NCBI GenBank assembly: GCA_025357975.1 | Contig: JANYKY010000277.1 | Location: forward strand, 1 to 15,343 | From: Gemmatimonadaceae bacterium | Lineage (GTDB): Bacteria; Gemmatimonadota; Gemmatimonadetes; Gemmatimonadales; Gemmatimonadaceae | DNA length: 15,343 nt | Direction: 5' to 3' | Shown here: piece by piece, positions 1 through 15,343 of the stretch | How positions within the stretch are numbered: the stretch's first letter is position 1 | Layout: every line of letters starts with the position of its first letter | The notes under the pieces: generated by a model | Databases searched by the model: none | Told to the model about the DNA's origin: nothing | The model's input: the letters and a program-made list of their open reading frames with translations, nothing else | Translations under genes and position numbers: made by a program

Positions 1-576
1 TGTGACTTCTGCCCGCCGCGGCTCCACGCTCGTGGCAAATTGCCGCAGGGCGTCGTTGACCATCGTTTGCGTGCACCAATGCGCGTAGTAGCCGCCGAAA
101 ACGCGGCCGAGCCAACGGTCCGGCCACTGAGGCGGTAAGGCGTAGTCGATGAAGACTCGAAGGAGGTAGCCACTCCCGGCGGGAGTCACCTCGAAATGCA
201 TCCGGTACGAGCCGATGACCAGAAGCCTGGGCGAGCCCACGGTCTGCCAAGCTTTCCGTGTTGGGGGGTCGCGCTCAGTCACCACCTCGTCCAGCGACAG
301 CTCGAGGCCGAAGACGTGGCCGTTAACTCGAATGCGTGATCCCACTTTCTGGCCGCGGCCTTCATCCAGGATGGTCTCCATTCGGCCTCCGCCCATACGC
401 CACGAAGACCGGCTCATGTGGGACGAGAGGCGCTCGTAATCATCGATGTGCGCAAACACACGCTCGGCAGAAGCCGGCACAACGGCACTGCTCTCATTGT
501 GATGAGGCAATTTTTCGAGACTTTGATAGGGCGTTGCGTCCATCGACTCGAGCACGGGCGTTGCACCATGGGTCAT
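1..576 (-). CDS. SRPBCC-family (polyketide cyclase/START-like) protein, partial at left edge
   Basis: An open frame of 192 codons runs to the window edge without a stop, so the C-terminus is missing. The ATG at 576-574 overlaps the TGA of the upstream fusion gene as ATGA, which fixes the start and implies translational coupling. Residues 25-45 (VPASAERVFAHIDDYERLSSH) have the pattern of the first strand and helices of SRPBCC ligand-binding domains. A run of beta strands follows (GSRIRVNGHVFG, LSLDEVV, GSYRMHFEVTP, YLLRVFIDYALP), and then the start of the long C-terminal helix (YAHWCTQTMVNDALRQFA). No signal peptide or membrane segment is seen, so it is probably cytosolic. SRPBCC proteins bind hydrophobic ligands or act as cyclases, and the ligand here cannot be read from sequence. 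The coupling suggests it serves the same process as the epimerase/VKOR-like fusion. Confidence 0.8.
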   Translation of the reverse strand, partial: MTHGATPVLESMDATPYQSLEKLPHHNESSAVVPASAERVFAHIDDYERLSSHMSRSSWRMGGGRMETILDEGRGQKVGSRIRVNGHVFGLELSLDEVVTERDPPTRKAWQTVGSPRLLVIGSYRMHFEVTPAGSGYLLRVFIDYALPPQWPDRWLGRVFGGYYAHWCTQTMVNDALRQFATSVEPRRAEVT

Positions 577-3077
577 CTGATGTACGGCTGCCACGTTCCG
601 TAACGCTCGCCCACCGGACCTTTACGCAGGCTCAGCAGGATCACGAGCACTCCAGCGGCGAGATTGCTCCACCTCGATGTGACCGACGCCCCATCGAGGA
701 TCCACGGGGCAACGATCACCCAGGCTCCCATCACGATATTGAAGAACCGACCGGCGCGGCCGACGTCGGCCAGCACGATAACCGCTACCGTAACAATGAG
801 GGCGCCGAAGAGATGGTCACTGTGTGCGACTGTGTCGGCACTGCCGAGCAAATAGGGAGTCAGCATCAGCCACACGCCTAGTGCAGCGCTCAGCAGCAGG
901 TTCCACGGCAGCGCTACTCCCCAGACCATCGCCTTTGCACTCACCACGTCTGGTCGACTGGCAACGGCTTCGGGAGTAGAGCGCAGTTTGCCGCCAAGCC
1001 AGAATATTTGCCATAGCGGCTGTCCCTGACGCCGTGCCTGTACCAGGAACTGGACCATGGCCACCACTTCGTCGAGCGTCAGCGCGATCATGATGATCAT
1101 TGCCAATGCGGCAACGAGACACGGAGTGCACCAGGCGCCGACGGCGAGTGGCTGAAGGATGATCAGCGTGATGCTGACGATCCCGAGGGGAACAACGAGA
1201 ATACCGAAGAACGTGACCATCCACGGCATCGTTCTCCACCGGCGCTTGTCTCCCATAAATCCCATCAGAAACTCGATCATGTATGCAACAGCGCCGAGCC
1301 CGGCATCGGCAATCGGAAATGCGCGAGAGACAGTGGAAGTCAGCACGCTCACTGTGCCAGTCCCGAAAATCGGATCGCGAAAACTGGTGATGTGGCCAAG
1401 CTCGAAGGACGCCATCTGTCGCGACAGGAAGAACCCCAGAAGTGCAAGCGCGATGATCGGCGCACGCTGCGGCCAGCTCGACGGGTTGTAGGACCAGCCC
1501 TGAGGGACTTCGGGGTCGGGGTCCATGTTCATGCCGGGTGCCATTGGCATCCCGGGCGCCAGCACTGCGAATACGATAACCAGGATGCCAATGAGTGTGT
1601 CGTTGGCATAGGCCGAAGCCGTCGGTGCCCAGAAGATGAGAGGCGCGAACATGAGCCAGACACCGACGAGCGAATTCGCCCACGGGGCCCATAGTTTCAA
1701 GAATGGCCGTTTAGAAAGTGAGAGTCGCGCCAGCAGCATCACGAGCCCGCCGCTCACGATATCCGCCATCTGCAATTGTCTGCCGCTGCTGTGAGCGAGC
1801 GCGAAAATTATCAACCAGGCCCCGAGAGCCATGTTGGTAGCGTGCGGCCAGGTGACTTGTGGTTTGTGCGCCATGCCCATCGCCGCGTGATCTGCGTGAT
1901 CTGAGTGATCTGTCTGTTTGGCGTGTTCAGGCATCGCAGGCATCGGATTCTCGGGCGGCGGAGCTGTTGGACCGTCTGTCGGCTCTTTGGCGTTGTCTGT
2001 GTTCGGTGTTGGCGGGTTATCGAGCTTGTTTTCCTTGTACCACTCCACCGGATCTGCCTTGAGCAACGCTATCATTTTCGGCAGAGTTTCTCGAAGCGAC
2101 CGTTTCGGCTCCCATCCCAGTACCGTTCTGGCGCGCGTGATGTCGAGCGCGTAGTGGTCGTTCGCACGGTCGATCATCCACGGCTTGATGAAGCCTTCCT
2201 GACGCGGAACATGGTCCAGCACCCACGCGCCCGCCTTGGCCATCGGTGCCAGAGCACCAGGAATCTCTATCGTTTCCTTGCTTTCGCCTCGAATGAGGCG
2301 AGCGATAGTGTGTTGAAGCTCGTCGTAGCTAAGCGCTTCGGGTTCGCCGAGCAGTATGGCCATCTCTGGTGATAGTACCGCGCGGCGGTCGACCACCATT
2401 TCAATCGCATCAACCAGGTCATCCATGTGCATGAATGACTGGCCGTGTGCGGTCGAGCCTGAATAGACCCGGCTCGTGAGATCGCGCTCGTAAATGCGTT
2501 GGATCTGATGCGCCAGCGGGATCGAGTGACAACCGTCATCGTAGACACCGGAGATGCGGAGGATCGCTGCGGGTATGGAGCCGCGCTTTTCGCGGATGAG
2601 CTTTTCGGTACGAACCTTTGACTCCGGGTACGCCCACGTAGGCTCGATCGGCCAGTCTTCGGTTATGAACTCGCCGGGCTCACCTGGCTTGTGAACGAGC
2701 ATTGTGCTCGAGAACACGAACTGCTCGACCTGGAAGGCCTGTTCATGAAGCGCGTGCAACAACCGGCCGGTGCCTCGAACGGTAATCTCGTCGTACTTGG
2801 GGCTTGGCTCGCCGAAGAAATCGTAATACGCCGCGAGGTGGATGACCGACGCGATGTGTGATCCATGATGATCGAGAACGGTGCGGAGCCCGTCCCGTAC
2901 ACCATCGTCGGAGGTGACGTCGACCGCGACTGCCACGCAGCCTTCCGGTGGCGGCGTCGGAGCTTTCCGGTCGAAGCCAACGACGTGCTCGAAACGCGCG
3001 GCGAACCGCCGCATCACCGCGGTGCCTATCGAACCATTGGAACCTGTGACAAGGATGATTCCCTTTTCTGGCGTCAT
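573..3077 (-). CDS. Extended SDR epimerase fused to SPW-repeat/VKOR-like membrane domain
   Basis: Protein of 834 residues. The N-terminal third is an extended short-chain dehydrogenase/epimerase: NAD-binding TGSNGSIG at 11-18, the IHLAA strand near 79-83 and catalytic Y150/K154 in YPESK. Residues 350-410 form a low-complexity linker rich in Pro, His, Met and Asp (HSDHADHAAMGMAHK). The C-terminal half is membrane-embedded. Two SPW-type repeats lie at about 410-507, a VKOR-like region at about 535-680 with one redox pair C650-T-P-C653, and two more SPW-type repeats at about 718-818. A Met-rich loop (PGMPMAPGMNM) lies at 508-518. The second cysteine pair of canonical VKOR is not visible. The frame stays open to an ATG at 3185, but the added residues do not look like SDR. 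The ATG at 3077, preceded by GGAG, or the one at 3098 fits better. The likely role is disulfide or quinone-linked redox at the membrane tied to an NAD(P)-dependent step; the substrate is unknown. Confidence 0.88.
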   Translation of the reverse strand: MTPEKGIILVTGSNGSIGTAVMRRFAARFEHVVGFDRKAPTPPPEGCVAVAVDVTSDDGVRDGLRTVLDHHGSHIASVIHLAAYYDFFGEPSPKYDEITVRGTGRLLHALHEQAFQVEQFVFSSTMLVHKPGEPGEFITEDWPIEPTWAYPESKVRTEKLIREKRGSIPAAILRISGVYDDGCHSIPLAHQIQRIYERDLTSRVYSGSTAHGQSFMHMDDLVDAIEMVVDRRAVLSPEMAILLGEPEALSYDELQHTIARLIRGESKETIEIPGALAPMAKAGAWVLDHVPRQEGFIKPWMIDRANDHYALDITRARTVLGWEPKRSLRETLPKMIALLKADPVEWYKENKLDNPPTPNTDNAKEPTDGPTAPPPENPMPAMPEHAKQTDHSDHADHAAMGMAHKPQVTWPHATNMALGAWLIIFALAHSSGRQLQMADIVSGGLVMLLARLSLSKRPFLKLWAPWANSLVGVWLMFAPLIFWAPTASAYANDTLIGILVIVFAVLAPGMPMAPGMNMDPDPEVPQGWSYNPSSWPQRAPIIALALLGFFLSRQMASFELGHITSFRDPIFGTGTVSVLTSTVSRAFPIADAGLGAVAYMIEFLMGFMGDKRRWRTMPWMVTFFGILVVPLGIVSITLIILQPLAVGAWCTPCLVAALAMIIMIALTLDEVVAMVQFLVQARRQGQPLWQIFWLGGKLRSTPEAVASRPDVVSAKAMVWGVALPWNLLLSAALGVWLMLTPYLLGSADTVAHSDHLFGALIVTVAVIVLADVGRAGRFFNIVMGAWVIVAPWILDGASVTSRWSNLAAGVLVILLSLRKGPVGERYGTWQPYIR

Positions 3078-3206
3078 GACAGTCTGTGCTCCGCTCATGC
3101 TGGGCTGGCAAACGGCCCGGGCTTTGCGCAGCGTAAAGCGCGCAGGAATTCGGCATTGTTGTGAACACCGCTCGAGCATTACCATAGTCGACGGTAGATC
3201 CTCATC

Positions 3207-3224
3207 GGCAGGCTCGGAAACTAC
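3207..3224 (-). promoter_or_regulatory. Left copy of 18-bp shared element, candidate operator
   Basis: Read on the minus strand this is GTAGTTTCCGAGCCTGCC. It matches 17 of 18 bases of the element at 5681-5698. It lies in the divergent intergenic region between the epimerase/VKOR fusion and the hybrid kinase, 130 bases upstream of the fusion's chosen ATG. A possible -10 hexamer, TATGGT at 3186-3181 (minus), begins 38 bases after the first base of the element. This would put the element near -50 to -33, a usual place for an activator. It may also control the kinase, whose start is 54 bases away. The function is inferred from position and repetition only. Confidence 0.5.
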
Positions 3225-3277
3225 TCACCAAACATGAACAGCTTACCCGAACACGAAGTGCCCATCGGCGTGTCTGT

Positions 3278-5680
3278 TTGAAATCGAACCGACGTTCCGG
3301 TTCAGGTGCTCGTCGGGATAGGAAGACACCGGACTATTCGGCGACGCCTAGTGGCGACTTGGCATCGACAAGTAACGAGCTAGAATCCTCTACCCAACAA
3401 TTGCAGTCGCTCAATGAGGCGCTGGGTGCACTCAATGACAAGCTGGAACAAGCTCTGGAATTGCAGCGCACGACTTCGGACGACTTGCGAAATGTCCTTT
3501 ACAGCACTGACGTAGCGACCCTCTTCCTCGATACGGCGTTCAACATTCGCTTCTTTACGCCCGCGACGCGGTCACTCTTCAGCGTCATTCCGGGCGATGT
3601 CGGGCGTCCCCTCGCCGACCTGAGTTCGCTCTCCGACGACGACGCCCTCATGTCGGACGCCATTAAGGTGCTGGAGACCCTCACACCGATCGAAAAGGAA
3701 ATCAACGCGCGGACAGGTGCATGGTACATTCGCCGCATCTTGCCATACCGCACCAGCGACAACGGCGTGGACGGCATTGTCATTACCTTCGTCGACATCA
3801 CGGAACGGCGGCGCGTGGCCGATGCTCTCGAAGTGGCCGAGCGGCGGGCACAGTCAGCCAACACCGCAAAATCTCGCTTTCTGGCGGCTGCAAGCCACGA
3901 CCTTCGCCAGCCTCTCCAGACCCTCGTCCTGCTTCAAGCGCGCCTGGCAAATACTGTAGAAGGAGAGCGCGCACAAAAACTCGTCGTACGGCTCGACGAC
4001 ACGCTGGGGTCGATGTCGGGAATGTTGAACGCACTCCTGGACATCAACCAAATCGAGGCGGGGACGGTCCGGGCCGAGATGGTCGATTTTCCGGTAGATG
4101 ATCTCTTTGACCAGATGCGAGATGATTTTACCTATCACGCGCAAGCACAGGGACTCTCGTTGCGAGTGGTCTCAAGCGGCCTTTCAGTTCATAGTGACCC
4201 CCGCCTGCTCGAGCAGATGATTCGCAACCTGCTTTCAAACGCACTCAAGTACACGAGGACCGGGAAGGTGCTGCTCGGCTGCCGCAGACGCGGGAGCGTT
4301 ACCCGCATTGAAGTCTGGGATACGGGTGTTGGCATTCGCAATTCGGAGCTCGAAGCAATTTTCGACGAATACCATCAGCTCGACAATGCTCCGCGCGAAC
4401 GCAGTCGCGGCCTGGGACTCGGACTCTCCATTGTGCAGCGTCTCGGTACTTTGCTCGGCCACCCCGTACACGCTCGTTCGTTACAGGACGTAGGCTCGGT
4501 ATTCAGCATTGAAGTGACCATCGGGCACGACGCGCTTCGTCCAAGGGTAGAGCCTCCTCAACACGTTACGATGAGTTCAAAGCCCGATGGTGCCAATGCC
4601 CGCGGGATGGTTCTGATCGTCGAAGACGATCACGCGATACGCGAGCTTCTCGGGCAGTCACTCACCGACGATGGCTACAAGGTGGCGGCTGCTCCGGACG
4701 GTTTTACCGCGCTGGAACTAACGGCGGCTGGGAAGCCGCAGCCAGACCTCATCCTGGCAGACTACAATCTGCCAAAAGGTTTGAACGGCCTGCGTCTCAT
4801 CGCAAGATTGCGGAAGGGATTCCGGCGAGAGGTTCCGGCCATCATTCTGACGGGCGACATATCGACAGATACTTTGCGCGAAATTGATACTGAGAGGTGC
4901 GTCCATCTCAACAAGCCGGTGAAGATAAAGGAGCTTAGCCGAGTCATCGAACATCTCCTCTCGGTATCTCAACTATCGGCGCAGGCGCTCGCTCCGAATC
5001 TGCCCAACGCCGCGTCTATCCCTCAATCGCCAGTCATCTTCGTAGTTGATGATGACGCGAACGTGCGCGAGGCGATTCGCGGCGTGCTGGAAGACGACGG
5101 GCAAACGGTGGAAGACTTTCCTTCGTGCGAGGCCTTCCTCGAGGCGTACAGTCCGGACCGCGAAGCATGTCTCCTGATTGATGCCTATCTGCCCGGAATG
5201 AGCGGGCTCGAATTGTTGAAGCGGCTTGGGGGTGCGGGCGGGCGCCGTCTGCCGGCGATAATGATCACTGGCGACAGCGATGTGCCGATGGCGGTACAGG
5301 CGATGAAAGCGGGCGCGTTGGATTTCATCGAGAAGCCGATCGGCAGCGCTGATCTGCTCGCAAGCGTGGCGCTCGCGCTCGAAACAGGGCGTGATTCGCG
5401 GCGTCTGGTCGCATGGCAGGAAAGCGCTGCCACACAGCTAATGGGTTTGACACCGCGGCAGCGTCAGGTGATGGAAATGGTTCTTACTGGCAGCCCAAGC
5501 AAGAAGATCGCGCTAGAGCTTGGCATCAGCCAGCGCACGGTAGAGAACCACCGTGCGACGATTATGAAGAAGACAGGCGCCAAGTCTCTTCCGGCGCTCG
5601 CACGACTAGCCATTACAGCGCTGGCCAATGGGGGAGTTCCCTCTAAGGGGACTGGCGATTCGCCTGTCAAAAGTCGCTAG
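3278..5680 (+). CDS. Hybrid histidine kinase with two receivers and a FixJ/LuxR-type HTH
   Basis: An 800-residue phosphorelay and transcription factor in one chain. Residues 32-72 form a coiled coil (NELESSTQQLQSLNEALGAL). A PAS domain at 73-180 is of the type found in the C-terminal part of CheB-CheR hybrid kinases. The HisKA domain at 195-262 carries H207 in AAASHDLRQPLQ. The HATPase has an N box (N317, N321), a G1 box (D348-TGVGI) and a G2 box (GLGLGLS, 378-384). Receiver 1 (443-560) has E449/D450/D451, phospho-acceptor D495, T525 and K546. Receiver 2 (585-700), FixJ-like, has D591/D592, D635, T664 and K686. The LuxR-type HTH is at 720-780 (GLTPRQRQVM to TVENHRATIMKK). There are no membrane segments, so it senses in the cytosol through PAS. 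The start is a TTG with no clear ribosome site, and no ATG or GTG lies between it and the upstream stop at 3185, so the N-terminus is uncertain. It sits alone between the two operons it probably controls. Confidence 0.92.
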   Translation: MKSNRRSGSGARRDRKTPDYSATPSGDLASTSNELESSTQQLQSLNEALGALNDKLEQALELQRTTSDDLRNVLYSTDVATLFLDTAFNIRFFTPATRSLFSVIPGDVGRPLADLSSLSDDDALMSDAIKVLETLTPIEKEINARTGAWYIRRILPYRTSDNGVDGIVITFVDITERRRVADALEVAERRAQSANTAKSRFLAAASHDLRQPLQTLVLLQARLANTVEGERAQKLVVRLDDTLGSMSGMLNALLDINQIEAGTVRAEMVDFPVDDLFDQMRDDFTYHAQAQGLSLRVVSSGLSVHSDPRLLEQMIRNLLSNALKYTRTGKVLLGCRRRGSVTRIEVWDTGVGIRNSELEAIFDEYHQLDNAPRERSRGLGLGLSIVQRLGTLLGHPVHARSLQDVGSVFSIEVTIGHDALRPRVEPPQHVTMSSKPDGANARGMVLIVEDDHAIRELLGQSLTDDGYKVAAAPDGFTALELTAAGKPQPDLILADYNLPKGLNGLRLIARLRKGFRREVPAIILTGDISTDTLREIDTERCVHLNKPVKIKELSRVIEHLLSVSQLSAQALAPNLPNAASIPQSPVIFVVDDDANVREAIRGVLEDDGQTVEDFPSCEAFLEAYSPDREACLLIDAYLPGMSGLELLKRLGGAGGRRLPAIMITGDSDVPMAVQAMKAGALDFIEKPIGSADLLASVALALETGRDSRRLVAWQESAATQLMGLTPRQRQVMEMVLTGSPSKKIALELGISQRTVENHRATIMKKTGAKSLPALARLAITALANGGVPSKGTGDSPVKSR

Positions 5681-5698
5681 GTAATTTCCGAGCCTGCC
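5681..5698 (+). promoter_or_regulatory. Right copy of 18-bp shared element, candidate operator
   Basis: GTAATTTCCGAGCCTGCC starts at the first base after the kinase stop codon. It matches the inverted left copy at 3224-3207 except at the fourth base. It reads towards the downstream operon, 87 bases before that operon's first ATG. A possible -10 hexamer (TATTCA, 5719-5724) starts 38 bases after the first base, the same offset as at the left copy. As I recall, the GTAATTTCC core resembles a FixJ site described in Sinorhizobium; this would have to be verified. The function is inferred. Confidence 0.5.
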
Positions 5699-5709
5699 CC
5701 TCCGGCGTA

Positions 5710-5733
5710 GCGGACTGATATTCAGATATCCGC
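5710..5733 (+). repeat. Inverted repeat/hairpin after the kinase gene
   Basis: GCGGACTGA (5710-5718) pairs with TCAG (5722-5725) and TCCGC (5729-5733), giving a nine-pair stem with a three-base loop and a three-base bulge (ATA). No T-run follows, so it is a weak terminator candidate. It overlaps the possible -10 region of the next operon and could equally be an operator dyad or mRNA leader structure. Confidence 0.35.
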
Positions 5734-5785
5734 CGAAACACCGCCTGCCCAATCGTTCCGGCCACGCCCATCAAAGGAACGGCTC

Positions 5786-5986
5786 ATGGTATGGCTCACC
5801 GCAAACTGGTTCTGGGTGCTGATCTTCATCGCTTTTATCTGGATGCACGTTGGCGGTCACGGTGGTCACGGTGGTCACGGTGGTCACGGGCAGCGTACCA
5901 ATCGATCGAGCAGCAATGGTGAAGGAGAGGATGGCGATGCGGAGACGATCCCGGCAAATCCTTCCGCCGGCGGGCATCAACACTGA
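5786..5986 (+). CDS. Small membrane protein with GGH metal-binding-like repeat
   Basis: A 66-residue protein with ribosome site AAAGGA eight bases before the ATG. Residues 4-20 (LTANWFWVLIFIAFIWM) form one membrane helix. They are followed by a fourfold Gly-Gly-His repeat (residues 23-34) and a hydrophilic tail ending HQH. The plan of one short helix followed by a His/Gly-rich segment is that of DUF2933-like mini-proteins found in bacterial heavy-metal clusters. The family match is from general resemblance, not a profile search. The His repeat could bind Cu, Zn or Ni at the membrane surface. It is first in a compact plus-strand run; the DUF5676-like gene begins 55 bases downstream. Confidence 0.72.
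   Translation: MVWLTANWFWVLIFIAFIWMHVGGHGGHGGHGGHGQRTNRSSSNGEGEDGDAETIPANPSAGGHQH
5852..5887 (+). repeat. Four tandem 9-bp units GGTGGTCAC
   Basis: Four head-to-tail copies lie in frame inside the small membrane protein gene and encode Gly-Gly-His four times. The first copy is GGCGGTCAC and the other three are identical. Near-identity at the DNA level suggests recent slippage expansion, so copy number may vary between strains. Confidence 0.9.
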
Positions 5987-6041
5987 AAGGCTGGAACGCG
6001 TCGTACCTGACATTCGACTCAAAGGCCTAAAGGACTTGGAC

Positions 6042-6341
6042 ATGCTGAATATCAAAGTCGTAAGCTGGTCGCTGGGAGTATTTACAAGCATCAGCTTCCT
6101 GCTGTGCGTGATTTACGGATTGATCGTCCCGCCCTCCCTGCACATGGCGCCCTTCCTGGAGCTCGTTTTACCAGCGTTCAAATGGCTGACCCTACCTGGC
6201 TTCTTCCTCGGGCTGATCGAGAGTTTTCTCTGGGGAGCATACGCGGGCTTGGTGTTCGTACCGATTTACAACTTTTTTTATAAATCCGGACTGCACAAGG
6301 CGACGTTCAGCCCCGCCAGTCAGGAAAGGGGTCAGCGATGA
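6042..6341 (+). CDS. DUF5676-like membrane protein
   Basis: A 99-residue protein. The ATG at 6042 has AAGGA seven bases upstream and opens directly into the conserved part (MLNIKVVSWSLGVFTSISFL). The frame is open further back to 5850, but that stretch only mirrors the GGH repeat of the preceding gene in another frame. Two hydrophobic segments are seen, at about 6-28 and 48-75. Between and after them are LHMAPFLELVLPAFKWL and GLVFVPIYNFF, the pattern of DUF5676-type small membrane proteins that accompany metal-resistance genes. The molecular function of that family is unknown. The gene ends in an ATGA overlap with the cupin gene, so the two are probably translated together. Confidence 0.75.
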   Translation: MLNIKVVSWSLGVFTSISFLLCVIYGLIVPPSLHMAPFLELVLPAFKWLTLPGFFLGLIESFLWGAYAGLVFVPIYNFFYKSGLHKATFSPASQERGQR

Positions 6342-6730
6342 CGGCCTTCGTCGGGCCGATTGAGTCGCTGACGCTGAAGAATGCGTGTTTCCGGAAAGTG
6401 TTGTTCACGGGTGCGCATTCCCAGTTGGTCGTGATGTGCCTTCAACCCGGCGAAGAGACCGGGAACGAGATGCATCCGGAAGTCGATCAATTCTTTCGCG
6501 TCGAGCAGGGAGAAGCGGGATTTGTGTTGGAGGGGAAGGAACAGCGCCTGGTGCGCGATGGGGACGCCGTTCTGATCCCGTCCGGGACCTACCATAATGT
6601 TCTCAATACTTCAAAGACCACAGCGCTGAAGATGTATACGATCTACTCGCCACCGAACCACCCCGACGGAACAGTCCACAAGACCAAGGCGGACGCTGAG
6701 ACGGCGGAGGCCGCGGCGCATCATCGGTGA
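6338..6730 (+). CDS. Single-domain cupin
   Basis: A 130-residue protein starting inside the stop codon of the preceding gene. Cupin motif 1 is recognisable as PGEETGNEMHPEVDQFFRVEQGEA (residues 37-60). It has E44 and H46 but lacks the usual HxH, a form seen in cupins with MHPxVDQFFRV. Motif 2, PSGTYHNVLN (81-90), supplies H86. The two motifs are separated by the usual beta-hairpin stretch (GFVLEGKEQRLVRDGDAVLI). It is a small cytosolic beta barrel, probably metal-binding, but the ligand or reaction cannot be assigned. The C-terminal tail is charged and ends AAAHHR. The MFS gene begins four bases after its stop, so the two share a transcript. Confidence 0.88.
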   Translation: MTAFVGPIESLTLKNACFRKVLFTGAHSQLVVMCLQPGEETGNEMHPEVDQFFRVEQGEAGFVLEGKEQRLVRDGDAVLIPSGTYHNVLNTSKTTALKMYTIYSPPNHPDGTVHKTKADAETAEAAAHHR

Positions 6731-6734
6731 CGAA

Positions 6735-7997
6735 ATGAAGAAGCATTTGTTCGTGCTGCTTGCCTGCCTCTTCGTCGTAATGGTCGGTTTCGGTATCACA
6801 CTGCCAGTACTTCCTTTCTATGTCGAGAGGCTCGCATTGAGAGGCGGCGAGTCGCGACAGTCAGTTGTGCTGCAAGTTTCGCTTTTGACAGGTGTCTATG
6901 CACTGATGCAGCTTGTCTTTGCGCCTTTGTGGGGACGCTTGTCGGATCGCATTGGCCGAAGACCTTTGATTCTGATCGGCATCGCCGGCTACGTCGTGGC
7001 ACAAGTGATGTTCGGACTGTCCACGTCATTGCCGCTGCTTTATGCAGCACGAACTATCGGAGGCGTTCTCTCCTCCGCGACGTTACCTGTCTCGGCGGCT
7101 TACGTGGTCGATATGACCACAAAGGAAGAACGCAGTCGTGGAATGGCATGGCTCGGAACCGCGGCAAGTCTCGGTGTGGTAGTCGGGCCCGCGCTCGGCG
7201 GATTGCTGTCGCGGCGCGACTGGCATTTCAACTGGAGCTCCGGACATTTCAGGCTCGACGGTTTTTCGACTCCGTTTCTTGCTGCTGCGTTGCTGGGCCT
7301 CGTAACGCTGCTTGCGGCACTGCGATGGCTGCCGGAATCGATCCCTAAGACTTCGCCGCAGGCAAAGAATCCGGCAACAGGCACAATCGGAAAAACGAAG
7401 GCCGATTGGCGAACGCTGGTGGAGAGTCTCCTTCCACTACTCGTGCCGACGCTGGCGGGACAATTTGCCCTGACGATGTTCGAAGCCACGTTCGCGCTTT
7501 TTGCGCAGGCGAAGTTTGCCTTCGGCCCCGCTGAAGTGGGCTACGTGTTCGTCATCTGCGGCCTGGTGATGACAATCTTTCAGGCAGGAGCGGTCGGTTT
7601 CCTCGCCGGTAAAATCAGCGAGATGATTCAGATCGGCGTGGGTTTCGCGCTGATGGGAGCGGGCATGGTTCTATTGGCGACGGCACAAACCAGGCTGCTC
7701 ATTTTCGCCTTTGTCGCGCTGCTGTCCCTGGGCATGGCGTTCATCGCGCCGAATCTGTCAGCGCTCGTTTCAAAGCGGGGAGGCGAGCGACAGGCAGGTG
7801 CGTCGCTTGGCGTACAAAACGCGGCTAACAGCCTTGGCCAGGTGGCCGGACCAATGCTCGGCGGCGTGCTTTTTATCTGGGAGGCAAACGCGCCGTATTT
7901 TTTCAGCGGAGCGGTATTACTCGCGCTGGCTCTGGCCATTGGGTGGAAGGTTCTCAGCGGACAGGGCACCTCCATAGCCCAGCGTGCGTTTCGTTGA
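6735..7997 (+). CDS. MFS drug/H+ antiporter-like exporter
   Basis: A 420-residue inner-membrane protein with about twelve hydrophobic segments. Motif A (GRLSDRIGRRP, 67-77) follows helix 2. Motif C (GVVVGPALGGLL, 147-158) lies in helix 5 and marks the antiporter (DHA1) exporters, the group of TetA-like and multidrug efflux proteins. The N-terminus (FGITLPVLPFYV, 19-30) also fits that group. The central loop at about 201-235 is hydrophilic. The substrate cannot be told from sequence. Tight linkage to the cupin and the metal-associated small proteins hints at export of a metal chelate or toxic organic compound, which is inference. GGTGA just before the ATG is a weak ribosome site, so translation may depend on the upstream cupin. 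Confidence 0.9.
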   Translation: MKKHLFVLLACLFVVMVGFGITLPVLPFYVERLALRGGESRQSVVLQVSLLTGVYALMQLVFAPLWGRLSDRIGRRPLILIGIAGYVVAQVMFGLSTSLPLLYAARTIGGVLSSATLPVSAAYVVDMTTKEERSRGMAWLGTAASLGVVVGPALGGLLSRRDWHFNWSSGHFRLDGFSTPFLAAALLGLVTLLAALRWLPESIPKTSPQAKNPATGTIGKTKADWRTLVESLLPLLVPTLAGQFALTMFEATFALFAQAKFAFGPAEVGYVFVICGLVMTIFQAGAVGFLAGKISEMIQIGVGFALMGAGMVLLATAQTRLLIFAFVALLSLGMAFIAPNLSALVSKRGGERQAGASLGVQNAANSLGQVAGPMLGGVLFIWEANAPYFFSGAVLLALALAIGWKVLSGQGTSIAQRAFR

Positions 7998-8042
7998 AGC
8001 ATGGAAACTTTCACACGCAATCACAATCACAAAGGAGAGCAT

Positions 8043-8417
8043 ATGAGTTGCTGCAGCGATGTAATGAAACCAGTAGAGGCGTCTTCATGTTGTACGCCCC
8101 AGGACACCGCGGCTGACGCTGCGCGCGCAATGCGCCATTCAGGTTGCGGATGCGCGCCAGTGGTAGAGGATACCGAACACCTCAAGCTTGTCGGTGTCGT
8201 TACTGAGCGCGACGTGTGTTGCGGTGTAGCAGCAGATGACAAACGGGCTTCTGAAGTTCGCGTGAAGGAGATCATGAAGCCCGTGTCGGCATGCTGCGGC
8301 GCTGACGAATCAGTGGAAGACGGGCGCAAAAAACTTCACCAGCACCGCGCGACCAGCTTGCCGGTTGCCGACAAGATGGGTAGCTGCTGCGGAACAGTTA
8401 GCGCTCACGAGATCTAG
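8043..8417 (+). CDS. Cysteine-rich tandem CBS-domain protein
   Basis: A 124-residue protein. The ATG at 8043 has AAAGGAGAG just upstream; an ATG at 8001 in the same frame has no such site and adds only charged residues. Two CBS units are seen: residues 7-62 (DVMKPVEA to GVVTERDV) and 77-120 (EIMKPVSA to SLPVADKMGSCCGTV). CBS pairs bind adenine nucleotides and act as sensors. Twelve cysteines occur in six close pairs: C3/C4, C16/C17, C35/C37, C59/C60, C84/C85 and C115/C116. This is far above normal for the fold. The pairs sit at equivalent places in the two units, which suggests a thiol-based metal or redox site added to the nucleotide sensor. It lies 45 bases after the MFS gene and is probably the last gene of that run. 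Confidence 0.88.
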   Translation: MSCCSDVMKPVEASSCCTPQDTAADAARAMRHSGCGCAPVVEDTEHLKLVGVVTERDVCCGVAADDKRASEVRVKEIMKPVSACCGADESVEDGRKKLHQHRATSLPVADKMGSCCGTVSAHEI

Positions 8418-10886: not shown

Positions 10887-11159
10887 CTACTGCGGTTTCG
10901 GCGAATTAGCGGTTGGAGTAGACTGGCGGCCTGTGGCCTCGTCGAGATGAATGCGGAACACCGGCTTGCCGCCCTTCGATGTGCATCCATAGATCCAGCC
11001 GTTCTTGTAAACGTAGTGAATCGGTCTCATGTCGACGCGATCATGAAAGGAGAACGCAATGCGTCCGACGTGATTGCGGCCGAGTATAGTTTCGATCTCC
11101 GAGCGCGGAAGCTCCTTGATGCAGGCTCTCTCGGGCTGCTCGATTGCACCCATATCCAT
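10887..11159 (-). pseudogene. Truncated pyridoxamine 5'-phosphate oxidase-like flavin-nucleotide-binding protein
   Basis: A 90-residue frame. Residues 13-64 (CIKELPRSEIETILGRNHVG to YVYKNGWIYGCTSKGGK) have the clear N-terminal pattern of PNPOx-like flavin/F420-binding split-barrel proteins: the helix before LGRNHVGRIAF and the MRPIHYVY and WIYG strands. Those proteins usually have about 140-150 residues. Here the similarity stops at about residue 65, and the rest (PVFRIHLDEATGRQSTPTANSPKPQ) is unlike the family and Pro/Thr/Ser-rich. Reading on in the other two frames does not restore the missing half, so this looks like a deletion or replacement of the 3' part, not a simple frameshift. It may be a dead remnant. 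It lies 30 bases downstream of the DUF305 gene. Confidence 0.6.
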
Positions 11160-13602: not shown

Positions 13603-15237
13603 CTACTTCTTCGGTCCCATGTTCATCCCTGGCATGGGGGCCATCGGGTCTGGCTTCTTCTTCGTAACGGGTTTGGTCGCTGTCTTGCTCGCCGCCCTGC
13701 TTGCTGGCTTGCTCGGGGTCTTTGCCGACCGCGCCGCGCTCTTTTTCATCGTCGCTCCTTTGTGTGTAGTCCCCTTGCCCATCGGCATCCCTGCCATCGA
13801 CATCGCCCCGGTCGGCGCCATCATCGATGTCATCATCTGCCGCATTGCTGGATCTGCATCGACACGCGCACGAATCACGGGGTCCGCCATCATCTGCTTC
13901 TGAAGCGCCATCATCCGAGCCGAGTGACCAGCCGTCATTGAACTAGTCGTCGCGGCATCCATCTTCATGCCATCCATCTTCATGGCGGCATTGGGAGATG
14001 AGCCTTGCTCATGCGGTGCCGCGGCTGGCATCCCCGTCATCCCCGGCATCCCCGGCATCGACTGATTTGCTCCCGCCCGGACGCCCGTCGAAGATGCGCT
14101 GGAGCCGCCTGGATGACTCATCCCGCTCATTCCCTGCATGCCCTTCATCGAGCTCGCCAACGCTCCGCGCTCCATAGTCGGCTGCGGGAAGCCGGGAAGG
14201 AATCCTGTCGCCGGTCCGCCCATGTTCTCAACTCCCATACCTTCGGCCATCGCACGCCACTCAGGCGGCGTAATCACATACGACGTATTGTCGCGATACC
14301 TGCTCGCGGCGATCAGTATCTCAGTGCGTTTGCGATCATGGGGGACGGACGGATTAGCGAGGATGTCAGACACGACATCGTGCATTGAATGGAGATTGTC
14401 GAAGATGATCGCCGCCTCTGGATAGCGCGCAGAGAACAGCGGCGCGACGGCGGCTGTCATCGGCATCATGCGAGGCATAGACGTTGGTGGGCTCTCGATC
14501 ATCTGACGAAAGCGGGCCACCGTTGCCAGAACGCCCGTTTGTCTCTCGTCCTTGTTCTTACCAGCAAGAAGAGGCTCGTACAATCCGATCTGAAGCCAGT
14601 GGTATGCCCAGATCAGTCCGTTGAACTTTGGATAGTTCTTTCTGAATGCAAGCGAGTAGGGCTGGCCTTCCATAAGATCCATGCTCTTGGGTTGCGAGCT
14701 GAAAGCAAGGTCTTTGCGAGTTTTATAGTAGCGGACCAACTCCTGAACTCTGGCGTCCTTTTGAGCGACCGTCAGCCTTTCGTCCGCCCACGCGTCGTAG
14801 ATCTGGCGGTGAAGAAGATGCGCCCAGTCGAACATCATCTTGGCTTCCGGAACGAGCTTCGCATATTCGACTTCTATCGCGGCTTCCTGAAGCGGAAGAT
14901 CAGGCGGGTGAACGAGGAGCTCACGCGTTATGAAACGATACTCCTTGTCCTCGAGCAGGCTCACCGAAGCGCCCGGTTTGGTCCAGAGCTTCTCATATAG
15001 AATGGCGTGTCCGTAGTCGAAAGCGTTGAAGAGCCTGTCGCCAGCCGGGTAATTGTCTCGAAACTGCCAGTTCGAACTGCCCGGCAGGTAAAACTGTTCA
15101 TGCGCGGTGGACCATTGTGCGCCTGCCACGAGCGGAGACAGCACGCCCGCGGCGACTCCGAAGAGCAGAGCGGCCGTGATCACCATCTTCCCAGCCTGGG
15201 CGACCCGCATTCCATTTGGGATCATTGTCCTGAACAT
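13603..15237 (-). CDS. Large exported His- and Met-rich protein, unknown function
   Basis: A 544-residue protein. The ATG at 15237 has GAGGAG seven bases upstream and opens a signal peptide ending VAGAQ (cleavage after A40); an ATG further up at 15330 lacks both. Residues 60-320 form a helical domain with recurring His-bearing helices: FDYGHAILYEKLW (73-85), FDWAHLLHRQIYD (136-148), WAYHWLQIGLYEPLL (210-224) and LHSMHDVVSDIL (282-293). Residues 329-490 are Met-rich low complexity (MKGMQGMSGMSH, MPGMPGMTGMP, MKMDGMKMD) with a short helical piece DPVIRARVDADPAMRQMM. Residues 490-530 are Lys/Ala/Pro-rich like histone H1 tails, and the end is MAPMPGMNMGPKK. A periplasmic copper-binding or buffering role is inferred from the Met clusters. 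I recognise no named family. Confidence 0.8.
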   Translation of the reverse strand: MFRTMIPNGMRVAQAGKMVITAALLFGVAAGVLSPLVAGAQWSTAHEQFYLPGSSNWQFRDNYPAGDRLFNAFDYGHAILYEKLWTKPGASVSLLEDKEYRFITRELLVHPPDLPLQEAAIEVEYAKLVPEAKMMFDWAHLLHRQIYDAWADERLTVAQKDARVQELVRYYKTRKDLAFSSQPKSMDLMEGQPYSLAFRKNYPKFNGLIWAYHWLQIGLYEPLLAGKNKDERQTGVLATVARFRQMIESPPTSMPRMMPMTAAVAPLFSARYPEAAIIFDNLHSMHDVVSDILANPSVPHDRKRTEILIAASRYRDNTSYVITPPEWRAMAEGMGVENMGGPATGFLPGFPQPTMERGALASSMKGMQGMSGMSHPGGSSASSTGVRAGANQSMPGMPGMTGMPAAAPHEQGSSPNAAMKMDGMKMDAATTSSMTAGHSARMMALQKQMMADPVIRARVDADPAMRQMMTSMMAPTGAMSMAGMPMGKGTTHKGATMKKSAARSAKTPSKPASRAASKTATKPVTKKKPDPMAPMPGMNMGPKK

Positions 15238-15343
15238 TTTGTTGCTCCTCTTGGACTTCACAGAAACGTCAAATTCGATCGTTGCGCACAGAAAAGCCTT
15301 AAGGCACCGGGAAAAGAGACCGCAAAGCAAAAGCGCGGGCGAG

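Follow-up and report, generated by a model that had tools for sequence, protein, structure and literature searches.

A FixJ-like promoter box on both sides of a PAS-REC-REC-GerE hybrid kinase gene is a probable operator of the kinase in a Gemmatimonadaceae bacterium

A short DNA element flanks a hybrid kinase gene in a Gemmatimonadaceae bacterium as two near-identical copies that face outward into both neighbouring gene sets. We propose that this element is, with high probability, the operator or promoter box of a FixJ-type factor and that the factor is the C-terminal REC-GerE part of the kinase encoded between the copies. The box is very probably the kinase's own site, because the signal recurs at gene starts in other bacteria that encode related kinases, whereas few of the genomes examined that lack such a kinase have it.

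Results

The window, that is, the whole stretch of 15,343 nucleotides that was analysed, is one complete contig (G000:C452); the draft genome to which it belongs comprises 527 contigs and 3,132,365 bases. Its relevant features are the following.

3278..5680, plus strand: hybrid kinase gene, PAS_10-HisKA-HATPase_c-REC-REC-GerE, 800 aa (Pfam and relatives)
5444..5611, plus strand: GerE (LuxR/FixJ) domain of the kinase, the proposed box binder
573..3077, minus strand: epimerase-SPW-VKOR fusion gene, putative leftward target (Pfam; box-less orthologues in relatives)
5786..8417, plus strand: putative rightward target set as a whole, DUF2933-DUF5676-cupin-MFS-CBS
5786-5986, plus strand: DUF2933 gene, first rightward gene (Pfam)
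6042-6341, plus strand: DUF5676 gene, second rightward gene (Pfam)
6338-6730, plus strand: cupin gene of the rightward set (Pfam)
6735-7997, plus strand: MFS gene of the rightward set (Pfam)
8001-8417, plus strand: CBS gene of the rightward set (Pfam)
3207..3227, minus strand: leftward 21-bp box TGAGTAGTTTCCGAGCCTGCC, 33.9 bits of a maximum of 34.3 with a matrix from other species only
5678..5698, plus strand: rightward 21-bp box TAGGTAATTTCCGAGCCTGCC, 29.1 bits with the same other-species matrix (maximum 34.3)
3186-3181, minus strand: candidate -10 hexamer TATGGT, starting 38 bases from the G of GTA
5719..5724, plus strand: candidate -10 hexamer TATTCA, starting 38 bases from the G of GTA

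The initial annotation had described two 18-bp copies around the kinase gene, both intergenic and outward-facing, each followed by a possible -10 hexamer at the same 38-base offset. This description is accurate in its positions, strands, hexamers and offset. The copies, GTAGTTTCCGAGCCTGCC at 3224-3207 on the minus strand and GTAATTTCCGAGCCTGCC at 5681-5698 on the plus strand, differ at one base and lie outside the genes as drawn. A chance match had been considered very unlikely, and indeed a window search for the 18-bp element with up to three mismatches returns these two copies only, against a shuffle mean of 0.01 and no case of two matches in 200 shuffles. The full motif is 21 bp, TRVGTARTTTCCGANNCTGCC, and extends the 18-bp element by three bases at the 5' side; in the plus copy, this extension reaches into the kinase gene, and the leading three bases are its TAG stop codon (5678-5680). 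No window site other than the two boxes scores above 8 bits with the matrix.

The assignment of an epimerase/VKOR operon to the left and a cupin/MFS/CBS operon to the right is corrected at its two starts. Similarity to relatives sets in at ATG 3077, which is therefore the most likely start of the epimerase gene in place of 3185, and the DUF2933 and DUF5676 genes precede the cupin gene. The DUF2933-to-CBS genes probably form one operon, because the gaps between them are small. A generic scan of 3050-5850 for ordinary sigma-70 promoters finds none before either target gene set and two on the plus strand, both inside the kinase gene. The missing ordinary -35 element before the targets is expected under an activator model, yet it proves nothing. 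A Pfam scan of 16 window ORFs assigns an HTH domain to the kinase alone, and none of these ORFs is fixK or nifA. The recognition helix of the window GerE domain, named by comparison, is SQRTVENHRA.

The motif recurs in other bacteria. Twenty-one loci with kinase relatives, scanned with a 16-base pattern at up to one mismatch, contain 20 matches, compared with 0 for the reversed pattern and a mean of 0.15 for 20 column-shuffled patterns. A similar pattern yields 97 matches versus 20 reversed in 19 records (16 plasmids and 3 genomes; L008 and L032 were left out), and the excess is concentrated on a few replicons (16 vs 0, 17 vs 0, 15 vs 0 and 12 vs 0). Six of the 16 plasmid records (W02, W10-W13 and W16) display no excess over the control, and two of the three whole genomes display little or none (G061, 6 vs 5; G063, 2 vs 4). 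The plasmid matches to the kinase were fetched for 17 of 27 (all except H2, H4, H5, H10, H19-H21, H23, H24 and H26).

In five annotated stretches of four plasmids, a tolerance of one mismatch gives 41 sites, compared with none for the reversed pattern. Of these sites, 36 are intergenic and within 350 nt upstream of a co-directional gene; at up to two mismatches, this applies to 46 of 59 sites (reversed 3), all these counts resting on incomplete plasmid gene tables. Only one of the 41 sites is located in a coding region, which runs against a random scatter inside genes, the outcome named in the initial annotation as one that would count against the element. The genes directly behind the sites include those for phosphoketolase, alcohol dehydrogenases, an alternate ATP synthase operon, a universal stress protein, slipin, PRC-barrel and BON proteins, oleate hydratase, DnaK and a CBS protein. 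An acetate kinase gene comes second after a site, and arginine deiminase and polyphosphate-kinase genes are present in the stretches, not directly behind sites. In Caballeronia sp. SBC2, the boxes precede genes for a universal stress protein, a general stress protein, BON and HAD proteins; in Sphingomonas paeninsulae, they precede slipin-acetate kinase, alcohol dehydrogenase, PRC-barrel and oleate hydratase genes.

What does the complete site look like? Beyond the search pattern, the 41 sites conserve T at -3 (98%), G or A at -2 (100%) and C at 16 (59%), and a TA follows at offset 37 in 19 sites and at offset 38 in five. Information exceeds 0.4 bits at 18 positions over 20 bp, 14 of which lay within the search pattern. 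In 108 further sites, chosen by the matrix from 38 loci outside the training set, TA occupies offset 37 or 38 in 68; 59 of the 108 open with TGA and 19 with TAG. When only the left half (TRVGTARTTTCC) is used as the query, the five stretches yield 37 sites and other loci 48, with no reversed match in either set. CT follows at 13-14 in 36/37 and 45/48 of these sites, respectively, and GA at 9-10 in 34/37 of the former; the fixK-type CTTA follows in 0/37 and 0/48. Since CT is kept and CTTA is absent after the left half, the right half truly belongs to the site and differs from that of FixJ.

The layout around the kinase gene is also recurrent. For 49 kinase loci, with the training records L016, L019, L020 and L021 excluded, we examined the flanking 700-nt regions at a cut-off of 14 bits, 30 usable ones upstream and 48 downstream. 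Sites of at least 14 bits occur in 24/30 upstream and 21/48 downstream regions, compared with averages of 0.03 and 0.045 for column-shuffled matrices; these loci include two from one genome (L009 and L139), three with broken frames (L022, L137 and L142) and some close relatives. By hand count, the best site points away from the kinase in 20 of the 24 upstream cases and continues in the kinase direction in 19 of the 21 downstream cases, and an outward pair as in the window is present in 10 of the 29 loci with both regions. No site is found even at 10 bits in 6/30 upstream and 26/48 downstream regions. The claim that both window gene sets form one regulon gains support, at the level of sequence, from this outward layout elsewhere.

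Furthermore, the motif co-occurs with the kinase at the genome level. Among 96 genomes of a first order, the kinase (E <= 1e-150) is present in 13, the exact motif in 13 and both in 10. Among 200 genomes drawn from a second order, the corresponding numbers are 27, 14 and 13. The exact motif is thus found in 10/13 kinase-bearing versus 3/83 other genomes in the first order (Fisher 6.6e-9) and in 13/27 versus 1/173 in the second (Fisher 3.0e-12), values that overstate independence because the genomes and loci are related to each other. Exact-motif sites number 31 versus 5 reversed and 42 versus 3 reversed, respectively. Under this requirement for an exact pattern, 3/13 and 14/27 kinase-bearing genomes have no match. 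The kinase searches scored the best 16, 10 or 5 candidates per genome. The motif without the kinase occurs once each in G086, G115 and G267 and five times in G091. Six of the 27 second-order kinase matches have no HTH part. One of them, G291, bears six sites and was rejected as an HTH-less kinase, as its contig ends inside the match; the other five bear no site, and truncation at contig ends is possible for them. The recognition helix is strongly conserved among these kinases: by hand count, 39 of 51 rows contain the string QRTVENHR without a change.

The near relatives of the window organism give a matching negative picture. The exact motif is present in 0/60 of them, and among the candidates scored, none showed a kinase with the HTH part at E <= 1e-60, with one partial match in G057. 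The proposal that the kinase HTH binds the box is supported by co-occurrence in two orders and by this joint absence. The same-genus genome G013 encodes orthologues of the epimerase-SPW-VKOR (75-78%), DUF2933, DUF5676, MFS and CBS genes and no such kinase at E <= 1e-60. A motif search of G013 with up to three mismatches finds nothing in the 20-kb epimerase stretch and nothing up to 850 nt upstream of the DUF2933 gene. Absence of the element in relatives that keep the gene order had been named as evidence against a regulatory site; G013 keeps both gene sets without the box, but the kinase is missing too, and the proposal survives this comparison. Similarity shared by the window and G013 starts 18 nt upstream of the epimerase start codon (ATG 3077) on one side and 12 nt upstream of that of DUF2933 on the other; beyond these points, the scores for G013, G012 and G023 are within the range of random placements. 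From these edges and the absence of kinase and box in G013, it follows that the kinase and both promoters form one block missing from G013. A three-mismatch match 36 nt before the G023 orthologue was judged to be due to chance, without a TA at 37-38.

In the window organism's own genome (3.13 Mb), the 18-bp element at up to three mismatches gives six matches, namely the two exact window copies and four with three mismatches, versus three for the reversed control. The genome-wide search with few mismatches that had been advised as a check yields no excess (121 relaxed matches at up to two mismatches versus 125 reversed); the regulon there would therefore be small, or the draft lacks parts of it. 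A third full-looking site, TGAGTAGTTTCCGAATCTACC on contig C208 (29.9 bits), is the sole one besides the window copies among the matches listed. It faces the contig end, so the DNA that it would control is off the contig, and it adjoins an ABC1-kinase gene and a glycoamylase gene. Glucoamylase-family genes are also present in two box-bearing plasmids. A candidate on G000:C245 was dropped at less than 14 bits.

Discussion

The box in the window is, by its bases, FixJ-like and not a FixJ box. The excerpt of PMC4999443 quotes the S. meliloti fixK site TAAGTAATTTCCCTTA and the SELEX class GTAGTTTCCC, and the left half of the window boxes agrees with both; the plus copy departs from this half at one base, with TAG in place of TAA ahead of GTA. 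On its right side, the box reads GANNCTG and not the CTTA arm of the fixK site. The resemblance to a FixJ site that the initial annotation had noted thus extends to the left half, where the fixK site and the SELEX class in that excerpt agree, and not to the right half.

The kinase itself possesses the FixJ-type output, a receiver followed by a GerE/LuxR HTH (Pfam Response_reg and GerE; FixJ 5xso, E 5.3e-38), and FixJ (5xso; 1x3u for the HTH) is among the best solved relatives of its REC-GerE part. The position of the box just upstream of genes is likewise shared with FixLJ. However, FixLJ consists of a separate FixL kinase and FixJ regulator, whereas the window encodes one 800-aa hybrid with PAS_10 and two receivers. 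In FixLJ proper, the PAS domain senses oxygen through bound haem; the sensor domain of the window kinase is identified by Pfam as PAS_10. The FixJ regulon is defined by control of fixK or nifA, and neither gene is among the annotated genes behind sites in the five plasmid stretches, whose annotation is incomplete. StyR (1yio) is the top solved match for the window REC-GerE, but its recognition helix differs from that of the window in the alignment. In the StyR system, kinase and regulator are separate, and the target is catabolic. CheB/CheR-fusion hybrid kinases, annotated as 'chemotaxis protein CheB' or 'CheR family methyltransferase', share the PAS_10-HisKA-HATPase-REC-REC-GerE core with the window kinase at 44-68% identity, and many of them have the same boxes beside them. 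These proteins carry N-terminal CheB and CheR, both absent from the window kinase according to Pfam. CheR is missing in roughly half of 120 kinase relatives among the matches listed, some of which are perhaps fragments.

The box-bearing islands presumably resemble the lxa locus of Burkholderia cenocepacia in gene content. This locus is a low-oxygen-induced island tied to metabolism, transport and electron transfer, and the excerpt of PMC6127331 that describes it names Anr and FixK/FixLJ and not a kinase of the window type. Literature searches with the string GTAGTTTCCGA returned nothing on bacterial gene regulation by title, and those with FixJ-like strings returned PMC4999443 as the only relevant paper among the matches listed. 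Neither the kinase together with the motif nor the island genes gave a match; 'CheB CheR fusion' gave nothing relevant by title among the matches listed, and no paper on the targets of such kinases was found in these searches.

Could the box serve a different factor? Another regulator, for example a stand-alone FixJ/NarL-type protein phosphorylated by the kinase, may bind it, with the kinase's own GerE domain targeting other sites or acting as a co-regulator. Such an arrangement is suggested by response-regulator genes that are divergent to the kinase in several loci, with box sites facing them, and by G091, which has five sites and no such kinase. However, G091 encodes a 571-aa REC-GerE-PAS-HWE kinase whose helix, NQRTVENHRA, is almost the same as that of the window protein. 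FixJ-type genes are generally present in kinase-less genomes of this kind. The motif is nonetheless rare without the kinase (3/83 and 1/173), though G086 and G115 have FixJ-type genes, and the kinase is the sole HTH bearer among the scanned window ORFs. We thus regard a different binder as unlikely.

A sigma factor is a still poorer candidate. Under this reading, an alternative (ECF-type) sigma factor would recognise the element as the -35 portion of its promoter, with which the preferred spacing of 37-38 bases to TA and the partial overlap with the -35 region are compatible; the information spread over 18 positions and 20 bp (14 of these positions in the search pattern) exceeds a -35 hexamer, the co-occurrence tracks a GerE-bearing kinase, and the left half equals the FixJ sites published in the excerpted PMC4999443, all of which makes this reading very improbable. 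Chance, or a structural or repeat element such as an RNA structure, a repeat or a duplicated flank, would be in keeping with the presence of two strong copies only in the window and with the lack of excess of relaxed matches in the draft genome, and yet it is hardly credible given the shuffle mean of 0.01 and the recurrence upstream of unrelated genes in other bacteria. An RNA reading was rejected, as Rfam gives 0 matches at the gathering threshold and the plus-copy fold (z 0.05) is no better than shuffles.

With the GerE domain of the kinase as the preferred binder, a mechanism can be outlined. A signal at PAS_10 would alter autophosphorylation by HisKA/HATPase, the phosphate would pass to the receivers, and the last receiver would allow GerE to dimerise on TGAGTAGTTTCCGA. 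Binding is expected to cover TGAGTAGTTTCC and to depend on GTAGTTTCC. The box would extend from immediately upstream of a degenerate -35 (CTGCC, about -37 to -33) into this element, and the -10 follows at the offset measured above; from this placement, a class-II activator, hence activation rather than repression, is expected. In this way, a single regulator would activate divergent transcription of the epimerase-SPW-VKOR gene on one side and of the DUF2933-DUF5676-cupin-MFS-CBS genes on the other. In other species, boxes precede fermentation and stress genes, which hints at low oxygen or energy stress as the signal.

How did the kinase and its boxes come to this organism? A contaminant contig was rejected as an explanation, since G013 has 75-86% orthologues of epimerase-VKOR, orf8481, DUF5676, MFS, CBS and cytochrome b, with weaker orthologues of three more window genes, and the closest named epimerase-VKOR relatives (85%, 75% and 72%; best 120 of 1300) are Gemmatimonadaceae. 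The named records with kinase relatives come mainly from alpha- and beta-proteobacteria, and most of these relatives are CheB/CheR fusions of ~1450 aa. One kinase-relative record is titled Stygiobacter. The window kinase and its three closest relatives (81%, 795-811 aa, no CheB/CheR) form one clade with support 1.0; a midpoint-rooted tree places fused forms next to this clade, but its deeper nodes are weak (0.57-0.89). This suggests that the window kinase descended from CheB/CheR-fused forms. On a 70,230-base contig (P0001/P0122), an 81% kinase relative occurs together with an 87% epimerase-VKOR gene. Transfer with CheB/CheR loss, presumably out of proteobacteria, is the simplest reading, and the kinase probably entered this Gemmatimonadaceae lineage jointly with its boxes. 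A further, tentative idea, which we consider possible and somewhat doubtful, is that the kinase with its two outward box promoters is a portable cassette that lands between genes and takes over both neighbours. The similarity to G013 stops 12-18 nt before the start codons, as if the kinase and both promoters had come in as a single proteobacterial block and taken over two gene sets of the resident Gemmatimonadota.

This kinase has many relatives: 2614 proteins reach E <= 1e-100 among 8000 candidates scored, and many of the relatives are named just 'CheB/CheR fusion protein'. For the subfamily with the FixJ-like HTH, the present analysis offers a candidate DNA site together with a promoter geometry and a set of candidate genes, which may make regulons readable from sequence. 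The findings also suggest that a FixJ-like half-site has been reused with another right half and that a regulator and its sites have moved jointly between phyla.

The rightward copy of the 21-bp FixJ-like box, the proposed site of the GerE domain of the hybrid kinase, overlaps the end of the kinase gene: the stop codon (5678-5680) supplies the conserved TRV at the 5' end of the box. Boxes in loci L148, L092 (at 27088, a 2-mismatch box) and L095 (at 42431) likewise overlap the stop codon of the preceding gene. A third strong box of the draft genome is located at a contig end (G000:C208:143-163; locus L111) and adjoins ABC1-kinase and glycoamylase genes.

The kinase gene starts with TTG, and a coiled-coil stretch that resembles the post-CheR linker of its relatives is discernible by eye near the N-terminus (both in region 3278-3500). 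CheB and CheR are absent from the window kinase and likewise from its three closest relatives (81% identity). Elsewhere in the window, 10887-11159 encodes a short, apparently truncated fragment (90 aa) of a pyridoxamine 5'-phosphate oxidase-like protein, with a Pfam match spanning positions 2-48 of 140. The long protein encoded by 13603-15330 exhibits, by eye, a Met-rich tail with repeated MxGM, and a Pfam scan of this protein returned no match.

Locus L130 (419-2134) encodes a 571-aa REC-GerE-PAS-HWE kinase and comes from a genome that is rich in boxes and lacks the hybrid kinase. Its recognition helix is nearly identical to that of the hybrid kinase, and this protein is possibly a rearranged regulator of the same box. 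In plasmids of Roseateles, Neorhizobium, Shinella and Agrobacterium (L026-L029), the kinase relative is located within polysaccharide clusters, and a box is oriented toward a divergent response-regulator gene. Therefore, this kinase relative may have been recruited to control a different output.
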